DNA of 55,182 nt from Paracoccaceae bacterium (GTDB taxonomy: Bacteria; Pseudomonadota; Alphaproteobacteria; Rhodobacterales; Rhodobacteraceae): assembly GCA_027489355.1 (NCBI GenBank), contig JAIXZY010000081.1, forward strand, positions 1 through 55,182, read 5' to 3'. The notes below the pieces were generated by a model. It was given only the letters and a program-made list of their open reading frames with translations, was not told the DNA's origin and did not search any database. A program made the position numbers and the translations under genes. Below, piece by piece: positions 37,039 to 51,153 of this stretch. Position 1 is the first letter of the stretch; every line of letters begins with the position of its first letter.

Positions 37039-37452
37039 TCAGATCGCGTCCAGAAACGGGTTTTCGACCTCCACGCCGGTTGGCCGGAAGTCGTCGACAT
37101 TCCCGGTCACCACCGTCGCGCCGCGTGCAAGGGCCGTGGCGGCAATCATCAGGTCCGCCCCGCCATGCCCGATGTCCTGCGACAGCCGCCCCCAGATCCG
37201 CGCCTCCTCTGGCCCGAAGGGCAACAGGCGATCCGAGAAGACCCGCACCGTCCGGTCGACCCAGGCGCGCAGGTCTGCCGCAAAGACCGGGTTCGACCTC
37301 TCCTGCGCGCGGATGCCGCGCTCGATCTCGCCCAAGGTGATGACGCTTAGGAACAGCTCGGTCTCGGGTTTGCCCTGCAGCCAGGCCGCCACCTTCGGCG
37401 CGCGGTCCGGGCGGCGCACGGCCGAGATCACGTTGGTGTCCAGCACATACAT
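37039..37452 (-). CDS. vapC: PIN-domain toxin (VapC family)
   Basis: A 137-residue VapC-type ribonuclease. The acidic residues of the PIN site are visible: Asp5 in VLDTN, Glu in LGEIERGI, Asp in GGADLMIAA and the final NVDDF. It is expected to cleave RNA in the cytoplasm when its antitoxin is lost. ATG 37452 overlaps the antitoxin stop by one base (TGATG). It lies next to the partition genes, which fits post-segregational stabilisation of the replicon. Confidence 0.95.
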   Translation of the reverse strand: MYVLDTNVISAVRRPDRAPKVAAWLQGKPETELFLSVITLGEIERGIRAQERSNPVFAADLRAWVDRTVRVFSDRLLPFGPEEARIWGRLSQDIGHGGADLMIAATALARGATVVTGNVDDFRPTGVEVENPFLDAI

Positions 37453-37694
37453 CAGAAGGCCACGTCGCGCGGCCGGGCCTGCAGCCGCTCCACCTCCTCG
37501 CCGGGAAAATGCAGCAGATGCGCGGCAAAGCTTTCCCGCCGCTCGGCTGCGACCTGGACCAGCCGCTGATATTCCTCGGCCGCAACCACCACGACCGCGG
37601 GCCTGCCGCGCCGCGTGACCTCTTGCGGACGCCCGGACAGCGCCGCCTCGACCACCGCCGAAAACCGGTTCTTCGCATCCTGGAGCGTCCACAT
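37452..37694 (-). CDS. Phd/YefM-type antitoxin
   Basis: An 80-residue antitoxin. The N-terminal DNA-binding half shows the Phd/YefM pattern (LQDAKNRFSAVVEAALSGRP, then EVTRRGRPAVVVVAAEEYQRL) and the C-terminal part is the toxin-binding tail. Such proteins neutralise the toxin and repress the operon together with it. The operator is probably the inverted repeat at 37710-37727 just before ATG 37694. Confidence 0.93.
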   Translation of the reverse strand: MWTLQDAKNRFSAVVEAALSGRPQEVTRRGRPAVVVVAAEEYQRLVQVAAERRESFAAHLLHFPGEEVERLQARPRDVAF

Positions 37695-37760: not shown

Positions 37761-37782
37761 CGATTTCCCCGCGGGGAAATCG
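37761..37782. repeat. Par palindrome copy 1 (downstream of parB)
   Basis: This 22-bp perfect palindrome has the 20-bp core GATTTCCCCG/CGGGGAAATC with flanking C and G. It lies 15 bp past the parB stop. It is one of five identical cores in the par region and a candidate ParB-binding centromere unit. Confidence 0.85.
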
Positions 37783-37796
37783 GCCCTGCCTCGCCC

Positions 37797-38873
37797 CTAC
37801 CCCAACTCGCGGAAGAACGCCTCGATGGCGGCCTCCAGCCGGGTGCGGTCGACGGTCGAAAAGTCGCGGTCAAGCTGAAGTTCCACCTTGCCCGCCGCGG
37901 CCGTGCATTTGACCTCGCCCGCCGGGATCGGCAGCCGCAGCACCGTCTTGCCCCGCTTGGCCGGCCTGCCCCGCCCCGGATTTCCCCGCGGGGAAATCGC
38001 CACCGGCTCGGTCCGGTCGAACTGCTGCAGGATCGCAACCTCCTCCTCGGCGCTCCGCCGGGGCGCGGCCTGCAAAGCCTGCACGATGCGCGCCGCCAGA
38101 CCCGGCTCCTGGTCCAGCCGCAGCGCCAGCGACAGGCCAAGCGCCCGAGGGATCGCCTCGGGGTGTTCAAGGTGCTTCTCCAGCCGCCCCAGCAGCGAGG
38201 CAAAGCGCCGGATGTAGGACCGCTTCTGCGGGTTGGTCGAGGCGAAAAGGTGGTTCACCGCCTGGTCCAGATCGTCGCAACCCCCCACCCCGTCGTCGAC
38301 ATAGGCCCGCGCAAGACGCGCCATTTCGGCCCAGGAGATTTCCTTTCGGACCAAGTTCTCGTCCACCATCCGGCGGTAAAGCCCCTCGACGGTTTCCCCG
38401 GGGGGAACGAAGCTGGCCGGGATTGCCGCCCAACGGTCGTCGCCTGTCTCGGCCAGCAGCGCGCGGAAGGCGGTCAACCGTCGCCATCCCTCCACCAGCT
38501 CGTACCCGCCCTCGGACAGCTTCTCGACCCGAATCGGGTTCGACAGCCCAACGGCCCGGAGCGAGGCCTTGAGGTCCTCAACCTCCGGGTCGCGCCGCTG
38601 GGTCCGGTCGCGGACAAGCTTCGAGACCCGGACCTCGGACACCGGGATCATGTCGGTGATGAGTCCCAGCTTCTTCAGCCGGACGAACTCATGCGCCAGC
38701 GCGTCATTCTCGGCCCGGATCGCCGCCTCGACTTCGGCACGTTGGCGAGAGGCCTCGCCGGTCTCGGTGATCGCGGTGGCCATCGGCCCCCGGCGCTGCG
38801 GCTCGGTGGGGGCCGGGGTCTCGACTTCCCCGTCGGGAAGGTCGATGTCGAACATGCGGCGCTTCTTGGTCAT
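37797..38873 (-). CDS. parB: ParB-family partition protein
   Basis: A 358-residue ParB/RepB-like DNA-binding protein. The N-terminal ParB nuclease-like domain contains RRDPEVEDLKASLRAVGLSN and YELVEGWRRLTAFRALL (the GERR-like box), followed by ENLVRKEISWAEMARLARAY and a helix-turn-helix region. The C-terminal part should dimerise. It binds centromere sites and works with ParA in plasmid segregation. An in-frame copy of the 20-bp palindrome (37979-37998) encodes AISPRGN near residue 295, outside the conserved domains. A partly matching site (15 of 20) lies at 38391-38410. Its start overlaps the parA stop (ATGA). Confidence 0.95.
   Translation of the reverse strand: MTKKRRMFDIDLPDGEVETPAPTEPQRRGPMATAITETGEASRQRAEVEAAIRAENDALAHEFVRLKKLGLITDMIPVSEVRVSKLVRDRTQRRDPEVEDLKASLRAVGLSNPIRVEKLSEGGYELVEGWRRLTAFRALLAETGDDRWAAIPASFVPPGETVEGLYRRMVDENLVRKEISWAEMARLARAYVDDGVGGCDDLDQAVNHLFASTNPQKRSYIRRFASLLGRLEKHLEHPEAIPRALGLSLALRLDQEPGLAARIVQALQAAPRRSAEEEVAILQQFDRTEPVAISPRGNPGRGRPAKRGKTVLRLPIPAGEVKCTAAAGKVELQLDRDFSTVDRTRLEAAIEAFFRELG
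37979..37998. repeat. Par palindrome copy 2 (inside parB)
   Basis: The perfect 20-bp core GATTTCCCCG/CGGGGAAATC within parB, read as ISPRGN. It is one of three coding copies, each in a different frame. Confidence 0.85.
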
Positions 38874-40174
38874 GCGTCACTCTCCATCTTCGCCCAGGCC
38901 GCAAGGACGTGGGTCTTGAACTCGACATAGGCCTGATCGAACGTCGCCCGCGCACGCCGCCAGGTCTCGCGGGTCATGTCGCGGTAGTCGATCTCGTAGA
39001 TCGAGGACAGGAACCGCCCCGACTGTTCGACCGCCCGGGTATGCTCGATCGGGTGTTCGGTCATCCTGTCCCCGAAAACCTTGCCAAAAGCATCCCGCAT
39101 CGCGCGGTGGAGTTCGTTGCCGGGCTCATAGCGGGTCAGCAGGAATCGGACGTCCAGGAACTCTTTCGGAAGCTTCGATTTCCCCGCGGGGAAATCGGCG
39201 CCGAAGTCCGAGAGGTCGGACAGGGCCTCGGCCAGCTGGCCGATGAACGAGGTGGTGGAGTCGTATTCCCAGTAGCCGGGGCCGGACGGGATATAGAGGA
39301 CGTCGGCCGCAAAGACCGCGTTCATGGACTGGTAGCCGATCGCCGGCGGGCAGTCGAAGATCACCATATCATAGGCGTCGTCGGGCAGCGTATCCAGCCA
39401 GCGCGAGACCGCGGCGAAGAAAGACCACTCCGGGTTCAGGTGGCGGTACTGGGCCGAGGCGAATTCCACGAAGGCCGCGTTGGCGCAGGAGGGGACAATG
39501 TCGATGGTCGGCCAGCAGGTCGGCTTGATGAAGTCGGTCGCACGCAGGTCGCCAAGGCCGGTATCCGAGACCGAAGCGGGCAGACGGCGGGTGGGCACCT
39601 GGCGGCCGCTCTCGGCCCCGGCGGCGCGGGCGTTCATGCGGTCGGTCTCGCGGATCAGGTCGCGGGCCATGATGCCCCAGACGGTGTGCTCTTCCGAGAC
39701 GTCCGCGAGGCCCATGGAATGCGACAGCGTGGCCTGCGGGTCGAAGTCCACCGTCAGGACCCGGTAACCGTCCAGAGCGGCGGCGTGGGCAAAGTGGAGC
39801 GCGACCGTCGACTTGCCGGCGCCGCCCTTGAAGTTCGCCACCGCGACCCGGACCGCCCGCTTGCCCTTCGGCCGCTCGGGCAAAAGGCTGCGGCGGTTGA
39901 TCTTCATCTTGCGGCGAATCTCGTTCACCTCTTCCAGAGAGAACCAGCGCTGGCGACCCTCGTCCTCGATTTCCCCGCGGGGAAATCCGGGCTCGGCCAC
40001 CAGGCGGCCGCGGAAGGTGTTCTGGTTGACCTGGAAGATCAGCTCGGCCACCTCCCACGAGGAGAAGCGGCGCAGCACCTTTTCATTCGCGGGGGAGAAG
40101 GTCTGCTTCCTGATCCAGCCCTGCATCTTGAGCGAGCTGTCGCGAAGCTGCTGGAGGTCCTTGTGTCCGAACAT
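38870..40174 (-). CDS. parA: ParA-family partition ATPase
   Basis: A 434-residue plasmid ParA. The deviant Walker A is KGGAGKST (residues 116-123), preceded by a DNA-binding N-terminal region (FSLEEVNEIRRKMKIN) as in the large, type Ia ParA proteins. VLTVDFDPQATLSH and MVIFDCPPAIGYQ follow as switch motifs. It moves ParB-bound plasmid copies over the nucleoid and may repress its own operon. ATG 40174 (MFGHKD) is the family-like start; the longer frame upstream includes a palindrome copy and is not convincing. Two further palindrome copies lie inside the gene, read as FPAGKS (about residue 330) and FPRGEI (residues 64-69). Confidence 0.95.
   Translation of the reverse strand: MFGHKDLQQLRDSSLKMQGWIRKQTFSPANEKVLRRFSSWEVAELIFQVNQNTFRGRLVAEPGFPRGEIEDEGRQRWFSLEEVNEIRRKMKINRRSLLPERPKGKRAVRVAVANFKGGAGKSTVALHFAHAAALDGYRVLTVDFDPQATLSHSMGLADVSEEHTVWGIMARDLIRETDRMNARAAGAESGRQVPTRRLPASVSDTGLGDLRATDFIKPTCWPTIDIVPSCANAAFVEFASAQYRHLNPEWSFFAAVSRWLDTLPDDAYDMVIFDCPPAIGYQSMNAVFAADVLYIPSGPGYWEYDSTTSFIGQLAEALSDLSDFGADFPAGKSKLPKEFLDVRFLLTRYEPGNELHRAMRDAFGKVFGDRMTEHPIEHTRAVEQSGRFLSSIYEIDYRDMTRETWRRARATFDQAYVEFKTHVLAAWAKMESDA
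39177..39196. repeat. Par palindrome copy 3 (inside parA, 3' part)
   Basis: The perfect 20-bp core, extended to 22 bp by flanking C/G (39176-39197). In the parA frame it reads DFPAGKS, a short insertion relative to the usual course of the protein. Confidence 0.85.
39968..39987. repeat. Par palindrome copy 4 (inside parA, 5' part)
   Basis: The perfect 20-bp core inside parA, read as GFPRGEI, in a third reading frame compared with copies 2 and 3. Confidence 0.85.
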
Positions 40175-40255
40175 CGTGTTCCCAACGTTAAATCCTGCCT
40201 GAAACCGGAAATACGCCGAATTTGACTTCTGCGCAAATGCAGAGTCTGCTTGAGG

Positions 40256-40277
40256 CGATTTCCCCGCGGGGAAATCG
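40256..40277. repeat. Par palindrome copy 5 (upstream of parA)
   Basis: A 22-bp perfect palindrome with the same 20-bp core (40257-40276), 82 bp upstream of the parA start in the gap to the replicase gene. It may bind ParB and be part of par operon autoregulation. Confidence 0.85.
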
Positions 40278-40606: not shown

Positions 40607-41302
40607 ATGCAGAAGGCGGGTCCCGAGCGACGGGCGACGGGGCGCAATGCCGCCTCGATGAAGTATGACATTCTCTCGGCCCTGGGCGCGCATGGCTGCG
40701 CGGGGGACAAGCACCGGCAGCGTCTGGTCCTGCGGCTGATCACGCTGATCGTCGCCCGCTACAACTGGATCGCGGATGAACTGATGGTCGGTCAGCGCGA
40801 GATGGCCGAGCTCTGGTCGATCGACGAACGCAGCGTCAAGCGCGAATTGGCCAAGCTGCGGGAACTGGGCTGGCTGGTGCAGAAGCGGGCGGCAGCGCGG
40901 GGCAGGGTGGCTGTGCACGGTCTGGGCCTTGCCCGCATTCTTGAGGGGACCGGGCCGGACTGGGGGCGGATCGGGCCAGACTATGTGGCGCGCATGGCGG
41001 GGCAGGGCGCTCCAGCGGCGGAAGCGGCTACTTCCAGCAACGTCATCAGCTTTCCGCTTCCTACCGGTGAGGAGGGGGTCTGGCCGCGCATCCAGGCGCT
41101 TCTGCACCGTGAGGATCCGCATCTTTACGCGGCCTGGTTCGCGGCGCTGCGGGCCGAGCACGACGGGGACTGCCTGCGGCTGCTGGCACCCAGCCGGTTC
41201 CATGCCGACTACCTGCGGTCGAACCACTTGCAGCGGCTGGAACGGAGCCTGCACAGCTGCGGGACGGAGGTGGCGCGGATCGAGGTCGTCGCCGCCACCT
41301 GA
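40607..41302 (+). CDS. DnaA-like plasmid replication initiator
   Basis: A 231-residue protein. Residues 60-105 form a winged helix (MAELWSIDERSVKRELAKLR, ELGWLVQKRAAARGR). Residues 158-215 resemble domain I of DnaA (VWPRIQALLHREDPHLYAAW and LRLLAPSRFHADYLRSNH), the helicase- and partner-binding domain, without an AAA+ ATPase. This composition is that of the DnaA-like replicase class of Rhodobacterales plasmids, which is typically adjacent to divergent parAB as here. I chose ATG 40607, after which the sequence is compact and basic; the frame is open further upstream. It defines the element as an autonomous replicon and should recognise an origin nearby. Confidence 0.85.
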   Translation: MQKAGPERRATGRNAASMKYDILSALGAHGCAGDKHRQRLVLRLITLIVARYNWIADELMVGQREMAELWSIDERSVKRELAKLRELGWLVQKRAAARGRVAVHGLGLARILEGTGPDWGRIGPDYVARMAGQGAPAAEAATSSNVISFPLPTGEEGVWPRIQALLHREDPHLYAAWFAALRAEHDGDCLRLLAPSRFHADYLRSNHLQRLERSLHSCGTEVARIEVVAAT

Positions 41303-42333: not shown

Positions 42334-43227
42334 TCAGGCGGGCAGGGCCATCAGCACTTCGGCGCCAGGGAAGGTCGTGCACATCGCCTGTATCTCTGCA
42401 AGGCCGGAGGCAAGGCAGGCGGCCGTCGACAGCGCGTCGGCGAGGGCCGCCGAGGGGGCGGCGATGGTGACGGCACGCCAGGGCGACAGGACGGGCCGGG
42501 CGCTGCGGGGGTCGAGGATGTGGCTTGTCACCCCGTCGCCGCCGAAGGTCATGCCGAGGGGGGCAGAGGTGGCGAGGCCCTGATGCCGAAGCGCGATCCG
42601 GTCGCCGGATTGCAGCGTCACCGGCCAGGTGCCGTCGGGCAGGGCCAGCATCTCGCCCGTGTCGATCAGGGCGCGGGTCAGGCCCTGCGCGGCCAGAAGC
42701 GCGGCGGTGCGGTCGGCGATGTAGCCCTGGGCGATGCCGTTCAGCGTCAGCGCCATGCCGGGGGCAAGGGTGATCACCTCGGGCGACAGGGTCACGCGCG
42801 ACCAGCCGAGCAGTGCCCGGGCGGCGGCGCGGTCGGGGTCCGAGAGCGGCTGCCCGGCTTCGCGCGCCTGCGCCTCGGCCCGCCAGAGCGGCTGGACGGT
42901 GGGGTCGAAGCGGCCGTCGCTGGCGGCGTGGACCGAACCGGCGAGGGCGAGACATTCCAGCAGCTCGAAGGGCGGATCGGGCAGGCGGCCGTCCTGGTTC
43001 AGCGTGGCGAGGGCAGAGTCGGGGAGGTAGAGGGAGAACACCTGCTCCAGCCGGCGGATCTCGGCCATTGCTTCGGCTGCAAGGCGGGGGGCGTCGGGGT
43101 GGTCGATCCGCAGGGTCACCTGCGCGCCAAGGGCGATGCCGGTCTCGACATGGACGGGAGGGCGGGTCAGGGCCATCGAGGGGGCGAGGGCGGCGGAAAT
43201 CGCGATGAAGCGGCGGCGGGTGAGCAT
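42334..43227 (-). CDS. nosX: NosX, ApbE-type FAD:protein FMN transferase
   Basis: A 297-residue ApbE-family protein with a Tat-like N-terminus (TRRRFIAISAALAPSMAL). Family features are ITLAPGMALTLNGIAQGYIADR (the FAD-binding threonine/lysine region, in two parts), ALIDTGEMLAL and SAPLGMTFGGDGVTSHILDPRS. It transfers FMN to a threonine of periplasmic proteins; the natural target is the FMN domain of NosR, which keeps N2O reductase active. It is the last nos gene, three bases after nosL, consistent with the nosRZDFYLX order of Paracoccus-type clusters. Confidence 0.93.
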   Translation of the reverse strand: MLTRRRFIAISAALAPSMALTRPPVHVETGIALGAQVTLRIDHPDAPRLAAEAMAEIRRLEQVFSLYLPDSALATLNQDGRLPDPPFELLECLALAGSVHAASDGRFDPTVQPLWRAEAQAREAGQPLSDPDRAAARALLGWSRVTLSPEVITLAPGMALTLNGIAQGYIADRTAALLAAQGLTRALIDTGEMLALPDGTWPVTLQSGDRIALRHQGLATSAPLGMTFGGDGVTSHILDPRSARPVLSPWRAVTIAAPSAALADALSTAACLASGLAEIQAMCTTFPGAEVLMALPA

Positions 43228-43230
43228 CGG

Positions 43231-43779
43231 TCAGCCCTCGGACAGGGATTTCAGGCGGCGGGAATAGTCGTCGTCGCCTTGGGGTTCGGTCGTGGCCAGC
43301 GGCGTGATTGCGCTGTCGGGGATCGAGGCGAGGTCCATCAGGTTGCCGCCGTGTTGGGTGGCGAAAGCCTTGGCCTCGGCGGGGTCGGCGAAGGGGACCA
43401 GTTCCGGCGCGCCCATGCCGCCCGTGGCGTCCGAGCCCACGACATAGGTCGCGGTGCGGGCGTCGGTCCAGTTCGCGGCCCCCGGAGCCTCCCAGGTCGC
43501 GCCGTCGGCACCCATGTCGCTGACGTAGACGGCCAGCACGGTGTTCGACTGTTCCGGCAGGCGCAGGTAGGTCACCAGGTCGCTGACCTGACTGAAAAAC
43601 AAGGGTGCGCCCGGCAGGCCGTCGAGGTGGACCTGACCCTTGGGGCCTTCGTGCTCCAAGAGGTTCATCTGGCAGAAATGGCCAAGGGTTTCGGGGGTCA
43701 GGGGAAGTGGATCGGTGTTCTGGGCGACCTCGTCCTGGCAGGCGGCAAGCGCGAGGGCGAAGAGAAGCGCGCGTTTCAT
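43231..43779 (-). CDS. nosL: NosL, copper-chaperone lipoprotein for N2O reductase
   Basis: A 182-residue lipoprotein. The lipobox is LAAC (Cys14). HFCQMNLLEHEGPKGQVHL carries the Cys/Met Cu(I)-binding motif of NosL, and FSQVSDLVTYL follows. It delivers Cu(I) to the NosDFY machine for assembly of the CuZ site in NosZ, acting at the periplasmic membrane face. Its ATG overlaps the nosY stop (ATGA), so the genes are coupled. Confidence 0.95.
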   Translation of the reverse strand: MKRALLFALALAACQDEVAQNTDPLPLTPETLGHFCQMNLLEHEGPKGQVHLDGLPGAPLFFSQVSDLVTYLRLPEQSNTVLAVYVSDMGADGATWEAPGAANWTDARTATYVVGSDATGGMGAPELVPFADPAEAKAFATQHGGNLMDLASIPDSAITPLATTEPQGDDDYSRRLKSLSEG

Positions 43780-44597
43780 GGCGTGACCTTTCGGAAGGCG
43801 GCGGCGGCAAGGGCCAGGGCGGCAAGGGGCCAGAGCAGGACCGAGGCGAGCGATTGCCAGAGCGGGATTGCATCGGCGGCTCCGCCCACCCCGGCGGCGG
43901 CGGCGGCGGCGCCGCTGGCGGTCAGGTTGAACAGGCGGAAGGCGTCGGCGGGATTGGCGAGGAGGGCTATGGGGAAGGCGTCGGTGGTGAACCAGCCGCC
44001 GTTGTCGGCGACGATGGCCGAGAGGAGCGCGAGGTCATAAAGGACGACAAGGCCAAGCCAGAGGCCAATGGCCAGCCCCGCCGCGCCGGAGGGGCGACGG
44101 GAGAGGGCGGAAAGCGCATAGCCCGCGCCAAGGAAGGTCGCGCCGAGGAGGACGGAGGACCAGGAGAGGCGGAACAGGGCCGGGAGGCCTGCGAGCGAGG
44201 TGTTGTCCTTGGCCAGCGCGACCCCGGCGGCGAGGCCGTGGCCGAGGAGGACGGCAAGGGTCAGGATGGCAAGGTGGGCGAGGAGCTTGCCTGCCAGGAT
44301 TTCCCACCGGGCGATGGGGTAGGCGAGGAGGAGGGGCAGGGTGCCACGCTCGGTTTCGCCCGCGATGGCATCGAAGCTCATCAGAAGGGCAAGGAGCGGG
44401 ATCAGGTAGACCGAGAGGGACGTCAGCGAGGCGACGGTGACCGACAGCCGGTCAACGCCAAGGCCGCCCGTGGGGGCGGAGCCGGCCAGCGACAGGACCA
44501 GCGAGAAGACGGCCATCAGTATCAGCGCGATGGCGACCCAGCGGTTTCGCAGGGCGATGCGGAACTCGGTCCGTGCGGTGGAGAGGATGCGGATCAT
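43776..44597 (-). CDS. nosY: NosY, ABC permease of the N2O reductase maturation system
   Basis: A 273-residue membrane protein with six predicted spans. The N-terminus (RILSTARTEFRIALRNRWVA) and YLIPLLALLMSFDAIAGETE are typical of NosY/ABC-2 permeases, followed by RGTLPLLLAYPIARWEILAG. It works with NosF and NosD to drive copper or sulfur delivery for CuZ. Overlaps of four bases with nosF and nosL show tight operon structure. Confidence 0.95.
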   Translation of the reverse strand: MIRILSTARTEFRIALRNRWVAIALILMAVFSLVLSLAGSAPTGGLGVDRLSVTVASLTSLSVYLIPLLALLMSFDAIAGETERGTLPLLLAYPIARWEILAGKLLAHLAILTLAVLLGHGLAAGVALAKDNTSLAGLPALFRLSWSSVLLGATFLGAGYALSALSRRPSGAAGLAIGLWLGLVVLYDLALLSAIVADNGGWFTTDAFPIALLANPADAFRLFNLTASGAAAAAAGVGGAADAIPLWQSLASVLLWPLAALALAAAAFRKVTP

Positions 44598-45490
44598 TGC
44601 GCGGTCCCCTGGCTGAAGTGGGAGTAGAGGTCTTCCAGGCTGGGGGGCAGGACCTCCAGATCGGCGACCTTCTCGCCAAGGCCCGCGATGCGGCCGAGGG
44701 TTTCCAGCTTGTCGCCTTGCGCGCAGGTCAGGTGCAGCGCGCCGTCGACGAGGATCGCGCCGGGCAGGGCGCGGGCAATGTCGGGCGCGTAGCCGTTCCG
44801 CGCGGTGACATGCAGGGTGACGGGCAGGTCGGCGCGGCGGCGGAGGTCGGGGAGCGAGCCCTCGGCAACGAGGCGGCCCCTGGACAGGATGACGATGCGG
44901 TCGGTCCGCGCTTCGACTTCCGTCAGCGCGTGGGAGGAGAGGAGGATCGACGCCCCCTGCGCGGCGAGGGCGTCGAGAAGGGCATAAAACTCACGCCGCG
45001 AGATGGGATCGAGGCCGGAGGTGGGTTCGTCGAGGACGAGGAGGCGCGGGTGGCCGATCAGCGCCTGGGCAAGGCCGACGCGCTGGCGCATGCCCTTGGA
45101 ATAGGTGCCGATCCGCCGGCGGGCGGCCTGGCCGAGGCCGACCTTCTCCAGAAGCGGCATGGCCTGGGATTGGTCCTCGCCGCGCAGGGCGAGGTAGTGG
45201 CGGATCTGTTCCAGGCCTGTCAGCGCGGGGTGGAAGGCGGCGTTCTCGGGCAGGTAGGCCACGGCGCGGCGGGCGGCGGGAGAGCCGGGGGCGGCGTCGC
45301 AGATCGTGACCTCTCCCGCCGTGGCGGGGATCAGGCCGAGGATGATCTTCATCAGCGTGGACTTGCCCGCGCCGTTGTGGCCAAGCAGGGCCACACGCTC
45401 GCCGGGGGCGACGGACAGGCTGACGCCGCTCAGCGCCGCGACCTCGCCGAAGCGCTTAGTGAGTCCCGAGATCGTCAGGGTCGATGTCAT
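44594..45490 (-). CDS. nosF: NosF, ABC ATPase of N2O reductase maturation
   Basis: A 298-residue ATPase. Walker A is GHNGAGKST, the signature YSKGMRQRVGLAQAL, Walker B RLLVLDEPTSGLDP, and the H-loop follows in LLSSHALTE. It energises NosY/NosD. ATG 45490 (MTSTLTI) is the homologous start; it lies inside the end of nosD, a 35-bp overlap in a different frame. Confidence 0.96.
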   Translation of the reverse strand: MTSTLTISGLTKRFGEVAALSGVSLSVAPGERVALLGHNGAGKSTLMKIILGLIPATAGEVTICDAAPGSPAARRAVAYLPENAAFHPALTGLEQIRHYLALRGEDQSQAMPLLEKVGLGQAARRRIGTYSKGMRQRVGLAQALIGHPRLLVLDEPTSGLDPISRREFYALLDALAAQGASILLSSHALTEVEARTDRIVILSRGRLVAEGSLPDLRRRADLPVTLHVTARNGYAPDIARALPGAILVDGALHLTCAQGDKLETLGRIAGLGEKVADLEVLPPSLEDLYSHFSQGTAQ

Positions 45491-46781
45491 CGTAATGGCC
45501 TTGTGTCCAGCGCCCGGCGACTTCGGCTTCATAGGCGGCGATGTCGGGGGCGACGGGGATGATGAGGGGCTGCATCAGCGGGTGGCTGTCGGTCACGCCG
45601 CCCGGCAGGATAGCGGGAAACGAGGACTGGGACCAGCGCACCAGCTGCACGGCGGGCGAGCCGGTCAGCAGCGAGGCGGCGGGTTGCGACCAGAGGATGT
45701 GGTCCATCAGGTCGTTCGGGCGATAGACCCCGTCGGCGATGCCGTCGCCGTTCAGGTCGAAGGCGGGATGGTCGGACCAGAAGTTGCCGCGGTTCTCGAA
45801 GCTCCACTCCATGAAGCGGGTGCCGACGTATTTCACCTGCTCCTGGTTGCCGATGAAGGCGTTGCCGGTCAGCATGTTGCGTTCGGACCCGGCGGTGAAG
45901 TGGATGCCGATGCCGCAGCCTTCGAAGCGGTTGTTGGCGATCAGGTTCTTGTGGGCGTTGTAGATGAAAAGGCATTTCTTCGTGCCGCCGCGCACCAGGT
46001 TCCCGGCCACGTCGGCGCTGTTGGCGAAGTTCAGCATCACCCCATGTTCGCGGTCGCCGAGGGACATGTTGTCGGTCAGCACCACGCGGTCGCTGAACAT
46101 GATCGCAAACCCAAGGTGGTTGCCGATCGAGATGTTGCCCGAGACGGTGGAATCGTGGGTGTACATGTAGTGGACGGCGAAGCGCAGGTCGCGGAAGAGG
46201 TTGTTGCGGTAGGTCCCCTTGCGCGAGGCGTTGGAGAAGATGCCGTCCCGTCCCCAGCGGACGTCGTTGCCCTCGACCACGGTGCCGGGGCTGTTCCAGA
46301 CGTAGATCCCGTTCCCGCGTTCGTTCATGCGCGGGTTCTGGCGGCCCTCGATCACGTTGTCCTTCACAAGGGTGTCGAGCCCCCCATGCACATCGACCCC
46401 GTGCATGTTGTCGGTCAGCCGGTTGCCGATGATCCGCGCGCGGTCGGCGCCCTTGACGATCTTGATCCCGGCGTCGAGGTCCTTGTTCACCTTGCCCGAG
46501 CGGGTGACGTGAAGGCCGGTGAGAACCACGTCGTCGGCGGTGATGGTGACGACGGTCCCCTGATACCCGCCGTCGATGGTGGCCGTCCCGTCGCCCTGCA
46601 GGGTCAGGGGCCGGTCGATGGTGACGGGGCCAATGTAGGCCCCGCCTTTCAGGATCAGCACATCGCCGGGGGCCGCCCCGGCGATGGCTGTGGCAAGCGT
46701 GCCCCTGCCCGGTGCGACAGGCACCTCCTCCGCCCAGAGGGGCGTCGACAGCAAGAGAAGGGCAAGGACACGCAGCATCAT
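45456..46781 (-). CDS. nosD: NosD, periplasmic beta-helix copper-maturation protein
   Basis: A 441-residue periplasmic protein with a signal peptide ([15 protein letters not shown]) and repeated parallel beta-helix (carbohydrate-binding/sugar-hydrolase, CASH) motifs such as [28 protein letters not shown] and [30 protein letters not shown] and [19 protein letters not shown] match NosD. It accepts copper from NosL and hands it to NosZ. The start is ATG 46781 or 46778 (tandem ATGATG overlapping the nosZ stop). Its upstream open frame is antisense to nosZ and not coding. Confidence 0.96.
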
Positions 46782-48736
46782 GCGCCTGTGGGTTCCACGA
46801 ACATCCGGCCGCGCATCTCCATGTGAAGGGCGTGGCAGAACCACTGGCAGTAGTACCAATAGACCCCTGCGTTGGCCGCGACGAAGGTCACGGACGATGT
46901 CATCTGCGGCCCGATCTCCATCGCGACGCCGTGGTTGCCAAGCGTGAAGCCGTGGGTCAGGTCGTCGATGTCGTCGAGGTTGGTGACGATCACCGTGACT
47001 TCGTCGCCTTCCTTCACCGTGAAGCTTTCCAGCGCGAAGTTCGGCGCCTGGCTGGACATGTAGACGCGAACTTTCTTCGGGTCGTCCTTGTCGCGAATCA
47101 CCATGTCCTGCCAGTCGTCCAGGTTCACCCCGTCCGCCTCGGCCTGTTTCCGCGTCTCGGCCCACATCGGGTCCTGCCGGTTCCAGACCGACAGCGGGTT
47201 CAGCTTGGAAGCGGCGACGGCGATGGCGTCGTGCGGCTCGGCGAAGTTCGGGCCGTCGTGGACCACGACCATCTTGTCGCCCGAGATGTCGATCAGCTGA
47301 TCGTTCTCGGGCTTCAGCGGGCCGACGTTCAGGAAGCGGTCCTTCGAGAACTTGCAGAGGCAGACGAGCCACTGGCTTTCGGCCTCGGAGGTTTCTCCCA
47401 TCACGGTCTTCAGGTGGCCGGGCTGGTACTGGACGTCGACCTTGTCCTTGATCGGGTCGACCTGTTCCCCGGCATAGGCGCGGATTGCGTCCTCGATCGA
47501 CCACTTGACCACCTGGCTGTCCAGGAACAGCGAGGTGTAGGCGAAGCCGCGGCCGTCAAAGGCGGTGTGCAGGGGGCCAAGGCCAAGCTCGGGTTCCGCC
47601 ACGACGACGCTGCGCGGGTCGACGTCGCTGTCGAACAGGGTGTCGAATTTGGTCACGTCCAGCACGGTGACGGTGGGCGACAGCTTGCCTCCGATGCAGA
47701 GGTGCTTCTTGTCCGGCGCCATGTTGCAGCCGTGCGGGTTGTTGGCGATGGGGACATAGCGGGTGAACTGCGACTTCGCCTCCTTGCGGCCGTCCAGGAT
47801 GCGGACGCCGTTCAGCTCTTGTCCTTCACCCGCCGCGACGGCGGCCTCGATGGCGGCGATGTTGAAGATGACGACGTGGTCCATCTCGGCGACGGTCATG
47901 TCGGCCAGCGTCATGCCCATCTCGCTGTTGTAGGAGGTCGAGAAGGCCCACTTGCCCTCGTAATCCGCGTCGCAGTTGTCGAGGTTGCCCGACACCATCA
48001 CCTGCCAGGCGGGCATCATCGCCTCGGCGTCGACGGCGGTGAAGACGTTCACATAGGTGCTGACGTCCTGCATCGTGGTGCCGTCGTTGACCAGCGGAGC
48101 CTCATCCTCGCCGTTGCAGAAGATGTATTTGGTGAAAGGCGCCTTCTGCGGCCGCATCCCGTGGATCGCCTTGGCATTCGGGATCTCCAGGATCGCGTCG
48201 CACTTCATCACGTCGGCGCGGACCCGGGCGACGCGGGTGTTGGCCTTGTCGTTCATGAACAGGTACTTGCCGTCGTACTTGCCGTCGGTGAACGACATGT
48301 GGACGTGGTGCAGGTCGCCGTTGTCGTGGACCTTCTTGCCGTTCGCGGCGAGCTGCTTCTTGGTCTTCTCGGTCATCGTGCGCTGGTGGATGCGGACCGA
48401 TTCATTGGTCTCGCCCCAGCCGGTGGCCGAGCAGCGGTTGAAGACCGGGACCCGCATCAGCTCGCGCATCGACGGGATGCCGAGGATGCGCATCTCGCCC
48501 GTCTGGCCCGAGGACCAGAAGCCGTAGTGGGTGTCCAACTGGCCGGGCGCGACGTTGAAGCCTTCGCTGGCCGCCTGCGCGACGGCAGCCGAGGTGCCAA
48601 GCGCCAGCGCGCCGATGCCCGCGCCGGTGCCAAGGGCCAGACGCCCCCCGCCGAATGCGCCAGCCAGTGCCGCGCCGCCTGCCGTGGCCCCCAGAAGGCC
48701 GCGGCGTGAGATCCCCGTGTTCGGTCGTTCAGACAT
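46778..48736 (-). CDS. nosZ: NosZ, nitrous-oxide reductase (clade I, Tat-exported)
   Basis: A 652-residue periplasmic N2O reductase. The N-terminus has a Tat motif ([13 protein letters not shown]). The CuZ-site histidines include GDLHHVHMS and others spread along the beta-propeller, and the C-terminal CuA site is complete in [14 protein letters not shown] (both Cys, His and Met). It reduces N2O to N2. The Tat signal and the nosR partner place it in clade I. It lies 12 bp after the nosR stop. Confidence 0.99.
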
Positions 48737-48748
48737 GGTCTGTCCCTT

Positions 48749-50935
48749 TCATTCAGCAGGTTGGGGGTGTTTGTGGTTCGGGTGGCCCGACAGATCCCGG
48801 GCCGGGGAAGCGGCGGCCGTTTCGCGCCGCTTCAGTTTCTTGATGACCACCGGGCACTTGGTGGTGGACTGGTACAGAACCTGGCAATGCAGGCAGTTGA
48901 TGCATTCGTTCGGGTTGATCTCGCCCGTCGGGTGGATCGACTGCACCGGGCATTCATGCGCGCAGGTCTGGCAGGGGTTGCCACATTCGCGGTACCGCTT
49001 CAGCCAGTCGAACATCCGCATCCGCGCCGGGATCGCCAGCGCCGCGCCCAGGGGGCAGAGGTAGCGGCAGTAGAAACGCTCGACGAAGAGGCCGGCCACG
49101 AGAAGCGCGACCGCATAGGCAACGAAGGGCCAGGCGCGGACGAATTTCAGGATGATGGCGGTCTTGAAGGGCTCGACCTCGGCCAGGTGCTCGGCCTGTT
49201 CGATACTCATCAAGGAGACGCCGAAAAGGCCCAGGAAGATCATGTACTTGATCGGCCAGAGCCGTTCGTGCAGGCCCCAGGGCAGGGTCCATTGCGGGAT
49301 GTGCAACTTGCGGGCGATCTGGTTGGTGAGTTCCTGCAGCGCGCCGAAGGGGCAAAGCCAGCCGCAATAGGCCCCGCGCCCCCAGAAGATCAGCGCGGCG
49401 GCGACGCTGAACCACAGGATGAAGGTCAGGGGATCAAGAAGGAAGGCCTGCCAGGAAAAGCCGGAGGTCAGTGCGCCGAAGAGCGCCATCAGGTTCACGA
49501 CGGAAAGCTGCGCGTTGGCGTACCAGCCCAGGAAGACCAGCGTCACGGTCAGGAAGCCCATGCGGAACCAGTAGAACCGGCGTTCGTTTCGCACGGCGAA
49601 GTGCTGGAAGAAGAACACCAGCGTCAGCACGGCCAGCATCGCGGCGGTGATCGCGATTTCCACCTTCTTGTCGGCCCAGATCCGCTTCCACAGCGCCTGG
49701 TGCGCGGCACCCTCCTCTTGCGTGGCGACGGCCTCGGCCGGGGCTGTGTCGGTGGTGGCGGCGGCGGGGACGGGAACGGGGCGGAGGTATTTCTCGGGCA
49801 GTTGGTAACCGAGGTCGAAGGTGGTGAAGAGCTTCTCGATCGGGCCAACCTCACGCTGGACCAGAAGCTGCAACCGGAACGGCTTGGTCGGGTCGAAGCC
49901 CACGTCGGCCGGGATCTTGAACAGGTCGGTCTCGGTGAAGCCTGGTGCGCCCTTGGCACCGACGGCGACCAGGCGCTTGTGCATCTTGTCCCGGAAGCGG
50001 ACCGACACGTCGTCCTGGATCAGCACGATCCGGTCGAAGATGCCGCCGCGCACATAGCCCGAGCCCTTGAAGCTGTAGAGACCGCGGCCCACGACAAGGA
50101 TCGCGTTCTCGCCCGGTTTCAGCCAGCCGGCCAGATTGGCGGCCTCGCCTTCCCCCAGAAGCGCCCTGGCGATGGCGGGGTGCGAGACGAGCGAGGTCTG
50201 CATCTCGATGAAGGGGGTTTCCGGCGGCTCGGTCAGGGCCTTGTCGGCAGCGCGGGGGTCGCCAAGCGCGGCGAAGGCCGCGTTCACCTGGCCCACGTCC
50301 AGCGACAGGCGACGGAGCGTGCCGTCGCCTTCCAGCGAGGTCCAGTCCGCCGCGGCGGTGGCGTCCGGGTTCAGCTCGAAGGCCGGGCCGGTGGCGGCGG
50401 CATCGGGGGCAAGCCCGCCGAGGCCAAGCGCCCGCGCGACCTTCAGCCCGGCGCGGACGATGGAATCGTCGATCACCATGACCGTGACCGTCGCGCCCGA
50501 GATGATGTCGAGATCGTGCGACTCTCCACCCGACTGCGCCTCGGCCACCAGGTCCACGCCGACATAGCCCTGCGCCAGGGCGTCGATCTTCGACTGCGGG
50601 ATGCCGATCAGGACGATGGGTTCGGAGTGCTTGACGAGTTTCACCCCAATGATCTTTGCGTTCTGGTCGACGGCGACCATCGTGTGGATCGGCTTGCCGG
50701 AATAGCCGGTGGTCGAGACGAAATCGCTGGTGATGAAGGCATAGCCGATGGTCTCTCCGCCCTTCAGCACCGGAACCACGGGCGCGTCGTCGCGGATCTG
50801 GCCGAAGGCCTCGGCCCCCTGCACCAGATCGGGGGCGGTGACCTTGGGCAGAAGGTCGGACAGCACCGTCCGGGCGCTTGCCGGAAGCGGAAGCAGCAGC
50901 ATGACGGCAAGCAGAAGGTGGGCGAGCAACTTCAT
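48749..50935 (-). CDS. nosR: NosR, membrane flavo-iron-sulfur protein for N2O reduction
   Basis: A 728-residue polytopic protein. A signal peptide (LLAHLLLAVMLLLPLPASA) is followed by a periplasmic FMN-binding domain with the covalent-FMN motif SGATVTVM, then transmembrane spans and two CX3CP motifs (CGWLCPFG, CRYLCPLG), and a C-terminal two-cluster ferredoxin domain (CGNPCQTCAHECPV, CINCLHCQ). It supplies electrons and maintains NosZ activity; NosX flavinylates it. ATG 50935 (MKLLAHL) fits the signal peptide. The TTGAC-N4-GTCAA palindrome at 50988-51001 is in position for FNR/NNR activation. Confidence 0.98.
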   Translation of the reverse strand: MKLLAHLLLAVMLLLPLPASARTVLSDLLPKVTAPDLVQGAEAFGQIRDDAPVVPVLKGGETIGYAFITSDFVSTTGYSGKPIHTMVAVDQNAKIIGVKLVKHSEPIVLIGIPQSKIDALAQGYVGVDLVAEAQSGGESHDLDIISGATVTVMVIDDSIVRAGLKVARALGLGGLAPDAAATGPAFELNPDATAAADWTSLEGDGTLRRLSLDVGQVNAAFAALGDPRAADKALTEPPETPFIEMQTSLVSHPAIARALLGEGEAANLAGWLKPGENAILVVGRGLYSFKGSGYVRGGIFDRIVLIQDDVSVRFRDKMHKRLVAVGAKGAPGFTETDLFKIPADVGFDPTKPFRLQLLVQREVGPIEKLFTTFDLGYQLPEKYLRPVPVPAAATTDTAPAEAVATQEEGAAHQALWKRIWADKKVEIAITAAMLAVLTLVFFFQHFAVRNERRFYWFRMGFLTVTLVFLGWYANAQLSVVNLMALFGALTSGFSWQAFLLDPLTFILWFSVAAALIFWGRGAYCGWLCPFGALQELTNQIARKLHIPQWTLPWGLHERLWPIKYMIFLGLFGVSLMSIEQAEHLAEVEPFKTAIILKFVRAWPFVAYAVALLVAGLFVERFYCRYLCPLGAALAIPARMRMFDWLKRYRECGNPCQTCAHECPVQSIHPTGEINPNECINCLHCQVLYQSTTKCPVVIKKLKRRETAAASPARDLSGHPNHKHPQPAE

Positions 50936-50987
50936 CAGGAATCTCTCTCGGCTTGCCCGGACGTGCCACAGCGGGGCTGTGTCGGCC

Positions 50988-51001
50988 TTGACGTACGTCA
51001 A
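50988..51001 (-). promoter_or_regulatory. FNR/NNR-type activator site of the nos operon
   Basis: TTGACGTACGTCAA is a perfect 14-bp palindrome of the CRP/FNR superfamily form TTGAC-N4-GTCAA. It lies 53-66 bp upstream of the nosR ATG, compatible with a class II promoter (about -41.5) responding to low oxygen or nitric oxide. Confidence 0.85.
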
Positions 51002-51153
51002 GAGCCGAGGGAAAGCCGACAGGATGCTTTCGCAGACCGCCATTCGGCGGCAACGCCGAAACAGAGGTCCGGTTCCCGCCGGATCGACCGGGAGTGAGAG
51101 AGGGCAGGGGTGCCGGAGCGGATCGGGGGTCATGTCCCCCGATCAGAGGACGC

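Follow-up and report, generated by a model that had tools for sequence, protein, structure and literature searches.

Perfect palindromes in and around parAB on a DnaA-like replicon in Rhodobacteraceae: putative parS sites whose type goes with predicted recognition-helix residues of ParB

The window, i.e. the whole stretch of 55,182 nucleotides analysed here, carries a replication and partition module, whose features are collected in Table 1. The parA and parB genes, both on the minus strand, share 4 bp and form one operon, which, as in ParABS systems, joins a ParA ATPase (AAA_31) to a ParB (ParB_N, matched slightly above the Pfam cut-off); the ATG at 40174 is the likely start of parA. As in DnaA-like replicons, a divergent gene with a DnaA_N domain adjoins parAB. 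Next to the replication module lies a cluster of the nitrous-oxide reductase type (42334-51133), containing NosL and ApbE (both by Pfam), an ABC-2 permease and a NosR-looking protein with FMN_bind and Fer4_5 domains.

Table 1. Palindromes and genes of the par locus in the window
Feature	Position	Strand	Remarks
VapC-like PIN-domain gene	37039..37455	-	Pfam PIN; VapC model below cut-off; beyond parB
Palindrome copy 1, putative parS	37762..37781	none	outside genes, 16-35 bp 3' of parB stop
parB, 358 aa	37797..38873	-	conserved start motif, ParB_N domain, helix-turn-helix
Palindrome copy 2, putative parS	37979..37998	none	in parB near 3' end, read SPRGN
Weak match, 15/20	38391..38410	none	mid-parB, counted by eye
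parA, 434 aa, RepA-like Walker ATPase	38870..40174	-	Pfam AAA_31; TIGR03453 RepA below cut-off
Palindrome copy 3, putative parS	39177..39196	none	in parA, codon ~330, read FPAGK
Palindrome copy 4, putative parS	39968..39987	none	5' part of parA, read FPRGE
Palindrome copy 5, putative parS	40257..40276	none	83-102 bp 5' of parA ATG, before divergent DnaA-like gene
DnaA-like replication gene	40607..41302	+	DnaA_N domain near C-terminus; start uncertain, open frame from 40391

The palindrome GATTTCCCCGCGGGGAAATC occurs in five exact copies in the window, all of them at parAB, and at 37761-37782, 39176-39197 and 40256-40277 it extends to 22 bp with the C/G neighbours included. Its half-site GATTTCCCCG occurs 10 times, where 100 shuffles give an expectation of 0.36 and a maximum of 4; the five copies are far above chance expectation. 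A sequence-only reading of this DNA had described five 20-bp copies, two flanking the par genes and three inside parB and parA, which agrees with the exact matches and the gene coordinates. Its statement that the coding copies use all three reading frames is borne out by the translations, with one copy per frame, and the weaker match that it placed in mid-parB is present. The own genome (4.21 Mb, 81 contigs) has no exact 20-mer beyond the parAB locus, while the inner 16-mer TTTCCCCGCGGGGAAA is found nine times, five at the par locus and four elsewhere. No exact matches to the palindrome are found in viral contigs.

Relatives were collected by a ParB search, which gives matches at 1e-20 in at least 136 of 295 family genomes. 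The 80 loci fetched consist of the listed matches down to E 1.2e-61, minus the window and the locus of genome G089 (fetched later), together with four distant loci (L154-L157). In all, one of six related palindromes is found without mismatch in 70 of these 80 Rhodobacteraceae par loci, and many loci have at least two perfect copies of one palindrome. The typing table has 85 rows, namely the 80 loci, the window, L204 and L221-L223; L221 and L222 are re-fetches of L152 and L150, and both are left out of the tree. The types are TGT (TGTCCCCGCGGGGACA, 27 rows or 25 distinct loci, L221, in truncated form, and L222 being counted among the rows), CTT (CTTCCCCGCGGGGAAG, 16 rows), TTACCC..GGGTAA (16 rows), TTT (TTTCCCCGCGGGGAAA, the window's type, 9 rows), GTT (GTTCCCCGCGGGGAAC, 4 rows) and TTATCC..GGATAA (3 rows), and the remaining 10 rows, including the four distant loci, are untyped.

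The sites recur at fixed places. These were counted in 68 typed loci having parA and parB together, the window included; the 10 untyped loci, L147 and L152 (no parA match) and L150 (parA match below 50% identity) were left out. A site was allowed up to 2 mismatches, and for TTACCC and TTATCC loci any of four patterns was accepted, which makes the place counts of these loci looser. A site at parA codon ~330 is present in 61 loci and absent in 7; 52 loci have a site no more than 200 bp upstream of parA, 47 have one no more than 200 bp downstream of parB, and 12 have a second parA site. In parB, sites fall in the first part in 17 loci, in the last part (the final 220 bp) in 20, and in the middle stretch, which in the window holds the weak match at 38391-38410, in 9. 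The number of sites per fetched stretch has a median of 4 and a range of 2-11. Exact 16-mers in loci with a CCCC core (four types) are of the locus's own type in 156 cases and of the other three types in none. Sequence-only reading had placed the palindromes within non-conserved loops, which does not fit copy 3, since the place at codon ~330 is one alignment position in most relatives; among the loci compared, copy 3 is the most conserved copy.

The place at codon 330 also shows how the palindrome changes. It is perfect over 16 bp in 41 of 74 loci (distant loci left out), and at least 6 of the 8 symmetric positions are paired in 68 of the 74. The changes are paired, with T-A or G-C at pair 7, C-G, T-A or G-C at pair 8 and C-G or A-T at pair 5. 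Among 1278 parA centres this place is the best, at least 7 of 8 pairs being kept in 0.86 of the loci, against 0.51 for the runner-up. The peptide is FPAGK, VPAGT, LPTGK or LPMGK, or LSADK depending on the DNA. Because this fixed place is palindromic across loci and the peptide follows the DNA, the constraint acts on the DNA, as had been argued from the three frames in the window.

Among the loci compared, the palindrome type goes with the residues of the predicted ParB recognition helix. ParB position 215 is P/A, R, Y or K by type: R in all 27 TGT rows, Y in 16 of 16 CTT rows and P in 8 of 9 TTT rows, the exceptions including L140 (GTT), with R instead of K, and L134 (TTACCC), with P. Positions 215, 223 and 207 are the top three ParB columns by mutual information with type, column 207 at 1.18 being closely followed by columns 12 and 251 (1.17), which lie outside the helix-turn-helix. 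ParB and site have common ancestry, and independent-pair tests on the supported branches of the ParB tree give 2-3 pairs, too few for significance, with none opposite. In a ParB model of middling confidence (mean pLDDT 67), helices span 202-209 and 215-234, with position 215 the first residue of the latter. The best fold matches of the model are Noc, ParB and KorB, with SopB-DNA also among the matches, all at low TM-scores and large rmsd over both domains. In about 70 natural par loci, which have palindromes of six types at set places, a code linking ParB residues to DNA lies ready to be read. The loci are also an example of multiple sites, coding ones among them, that would have to change in step with a single protein.

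Taken together, the palindromes are very probably the parS (centromere) sites of the DnaA-like replicon's own partition system, and the proposal of dispersed parS sites in the sequence-only reading gains support from the symmetric type switching at homologous places and the association with ParB residues. As in ParABS systems, repeated cis sites lie at the operon, and their specificity for the cognate ParB appears as an association. The observations are the sites themselves, the fixed places at which they recur among relatives, the symmetric switching and the residue association; ParB binding, clamp loading, partition and autoregulation are what we infer. ParB dimers would recognise both half-sites via the helix-turn-helix and load at the sites, probably as CTP-gated clamps, and the loaded ParB would form a complex that ParA moves. 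Several identical sites flank parAB and sit within it. Since the palindrome reads without a stop in each of the three frames, the coding copies can be tolerated. Through copy 5, upstream of parA, ParB may in addition repress parAB, and this copy is in that sense a possible operator. That the palindromes are operators or replication-control sites rather than centromeres, to which chiefly the DnaA-like protein or a repressing ParB would bind, would suit the copy upstream of parA in 52 of 68 loci; yet the intragenic copies and those downstream of parB are not at promoter places, the type tracks ParB residues, and ParB-like genes come with scattered copies even when no family ParA is found nearby (see below), so that we regard it as very improbable.

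How far the putative parS sites extend beyond par was seen by counting the exact 16-mers of the three commonest types in 295 family genomes. Overall there are 374 copies, against 3 for reversed controls: 253 TGT copies in 25 genomes, 35 TTT copies in 8 and 86 CTT copies in 19. No genome has two types, and 243 of the 295 have none of the three. Genomes with a 16-mer nearly always have a matching par locus, and every TGT and TTT genome has a copy within its fetched par locus; because types were assigned by the par-locus copies, what is informative is that the other genomes have none. The G094 genome has a single CTT copy about 8 kb off on the par contig, its par locus being untyped, and for the CTT genomes G073 (4 copies) and G157 (1 copy) no ParB match at 1e-20 is among the matches listed; G073 (C1, C2, C3) perhaps has a more divergent orphan ParB. 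Several par-bearing genomes also have copies at other places. Beyond the par stretches fetched there are 168 TGT copies in 9 genomes, 10 TTT copies in 4 genomes (the own genome accounting for 4) and 47 CTT copies in 7 genomes; two such copies in G092 and two in G303 are at the opposite end of the par contig. Sixteen of the genomes with a 16-mer, as well as the two CTT genomes without a detected ParB, have no clear par match or have copies far from par. Among the outside copies looked at, some are in conserved genes, namely Obg and a topoisomerase IV/gyrase A gene in G092 and the TrmD gene in both G118 and G320, as well as Tex, an acyltransferase and a DUF4424 protein in the own genome. That all own-genome matches outside par are codon coincidences is possible for the 14-mer cores, and is rejected for the 16-mer in view of the counts in the 295 genomes.

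The copies are most numerous in four genomes with an orphan ParB-like protein: 79 sites in G118, 62 in G301, 44 in G349 (Pararhodobacter sp. SW119, outside the 295-genome sample) and 33 in G089. Three genomes with a shortened ParB-like protein and the usual ParA missing have 76, 60 and 31 extra copies outside par. The residues of the orphan proteins match the type (R in G118 and G301, Y in G089, A with R223 in SW119), a plasmid-ParB start motif like MTKKRRMFDIDLP is missing, and the N-termini are short, with no obvious membrane-targeting helix by eye; the orphan rows L150 and L152 form long branches in the ParB tree. No match to the window ParA is found near the orphan gene in the stretches fetched from G118 (18 kb), G349 (16 kb) and G089 (9.8 kb), where a ParB relative, a missing partner ParA and many scattered sites are found together, as for Noc; in G301 a distant RepA-like gene (29%) lies beside the ParB-like gene. 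The orphan parB of G118 (L221, 8289-9434) has a photosynthesis-type neighbourhood, with magnesium chelatase and amine-oxidase family desaturase or carotenoid-type genes. Close pairs of sites (below 200 bp) in G301 and G118 are spaced 25-33 bp in 9 of 11 cases, the pairs being hand-picked among the positions listed. Two TGT palindromes of G118 are part of larger structures, one at the centre of a terminator-like hairpin flanked by runs of A and T (L209, 990-1027), the other lengthened into a longer stem (L213, 984-1011). No congener of G118 for comparing site conservation is found among 41 genomes searched. Noc sites are sparse near the terminus; for G089, 25 of the 33 positions were examined, on a contig that starts dnaA-like, and the skew samples are noisy.

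The dispersed copies, together with the copies within genes in three frames, are what a small mobile palindromic element would leave, a Rickettsia palindromic element or REP-like sequence that spread in frame into genes, which had been raised as the alternative. SW119 speaks for it: the 44 copies are clustered, seven of them (L183, 1030-1418) form a tandem array with a spacing of 61-63 bp, and flank identities reach 0.97. In G301 the flanks (9 of 62 sites) have a shared T two bases out and identities up to 0.65. A sequence common elsewhere with no link to par loci, which had been named as telling against parS, is not seen for the 20-mer in the own genome, whereas SW119 does have many copies away from parB. 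Against the mobile element, the flanks are unrelated in G118 (16 of 79 sites), and for these sites together with 21 other TGT copies the median identity is 0.25-0.28 and the maximum 0.53. Inserted codons, as left by a Rickettsia-type element, are not seen among the parA and parB copies in comparison with relatives: copies 2-4 are ungapped against L078 and L026, and the parA alignment near codon 330 is ungapped in most loci. Among the three nearest relatives aligned (L078, L026, L041), copy 1 has no counterpart, the place of copy 2 is exact in L026 and L041 with two changes in L078, that of copy 3 is exact in L078 and L026 with a 2-nt gap in L041, the single exception to the ungapped alignment of the coding copies, and copy 5 keeps its inner 18 bp in all three. 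The parA and parB of L041 (4372-6754, a metagenome contig) each appear split between frames. Since the place of copy 4 is an imperfect, ungapped palindrome in all three relatives, at least this copy arose by substitution, and it is probably recent. With the sequence also switching with ParB type at fixed places and 243 of 295 genomes having none of the three 16-mers, a mobile element is disfavoured and very improbable. Finally, it is hardly credible that FPAGK, FPRGE and SPRGN are merely easy peptides whose GC-rich codons happen to spell the palindrome, for while the 14-mer core does occur in ordinary own-genome genes, e.g. an ABC-transporter-like frame, the 16-mers are absent from sampled genomes without a matching par type, except in G073, G157 (CTT) and G094, and the parA peptide changes along with the palindrome (VPAGT, LPTGK, LSADK).

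With the palindromes read as parS sites, the copies outside par and the orphan ParBs are the less expected part. Tentatively, and with more doubt than belief, we suggest that the host chromosome, too, is marked by the ParB of DnaA-like replicons, scattered and correctly typed sites being acquired by the genomes, and that in several lineages of three specificities (G118, G301, G349 and G089) an N-terminally shortened ParB parted from its ParA became a chromosome-wide DNA-binding system, Noc-like or of another sort. The orphan ParBs may thus have a second role like that of Noc. If the outside copies are indeed bound, plasmid partition proteins would have become chromosome-wide systems more than once in Rhodobacteraceae, a family in which we know of no Noc-type system.

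The kind of system is already known. Petersen et al. 2009 reportedly described the compatibility-group palindromes of RepABC in Rhodobacterales, and Petersen et al. 2011 are said to have described DnaA-like plasmid modules there, with parAB beside the DnaA-like replicase and conserved palindromes noted. In the literature searched, which did not take in Petersen et al. 2011 and was in part available as excerpts, we find the conserved coding site, the association with ParB residues and the copies beyond par nowhere described, and the motif letters have an unrelated maize paper as sole match. The sites are likewise not described in the available text of PMC9025767, PMC5613091, PMC3910554, PMC9426580, PMC6209633, PMC3832669, PMC7383237 and PMC12704722. 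According to the available text on RepABC, the compatibility groups of Rhodobacterales have group-specific perfect palindromes, read as RepB anchors, and a single base, changed symmetrically, tells those of groups 1 and 2 apart (PMC5613091). The palindromes of the window are like these in being perfect and group-specific, with symmetric base changes between groups. Unlike the RepABC sites, which as far as that text goes are 14 nt and in groups 1 and 2 typically stand as two adjacent copies downstream of repC, those of DnaA-like par loci are 16-22 bp, with 2-11 sites per locus, a conserved copy in parA and others in parB. For ParB-parS and Noc-NBS, four recognition residues are described to switch binding between two palindromes differing at outer positions (PMC7383237, available text), and Noc is described to bind sites scattered round the chromosome (PMC4331003, available text). 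The window ParB has a remote sequence similarity to Noc (phmmer E 0.058), and the genomes with orphans resemble Noc in their scattered sites. Orphan ParB proteins are also described in PMC12704722, in the available text of which they lie outside parAB, often without a ParA-binding motif, and the terms Alphaproteobacteria and Rhodobacter are absent from the main text; unlike the proteins so described, the orphan ParBs found here are accompanied by dozens of matching sites.
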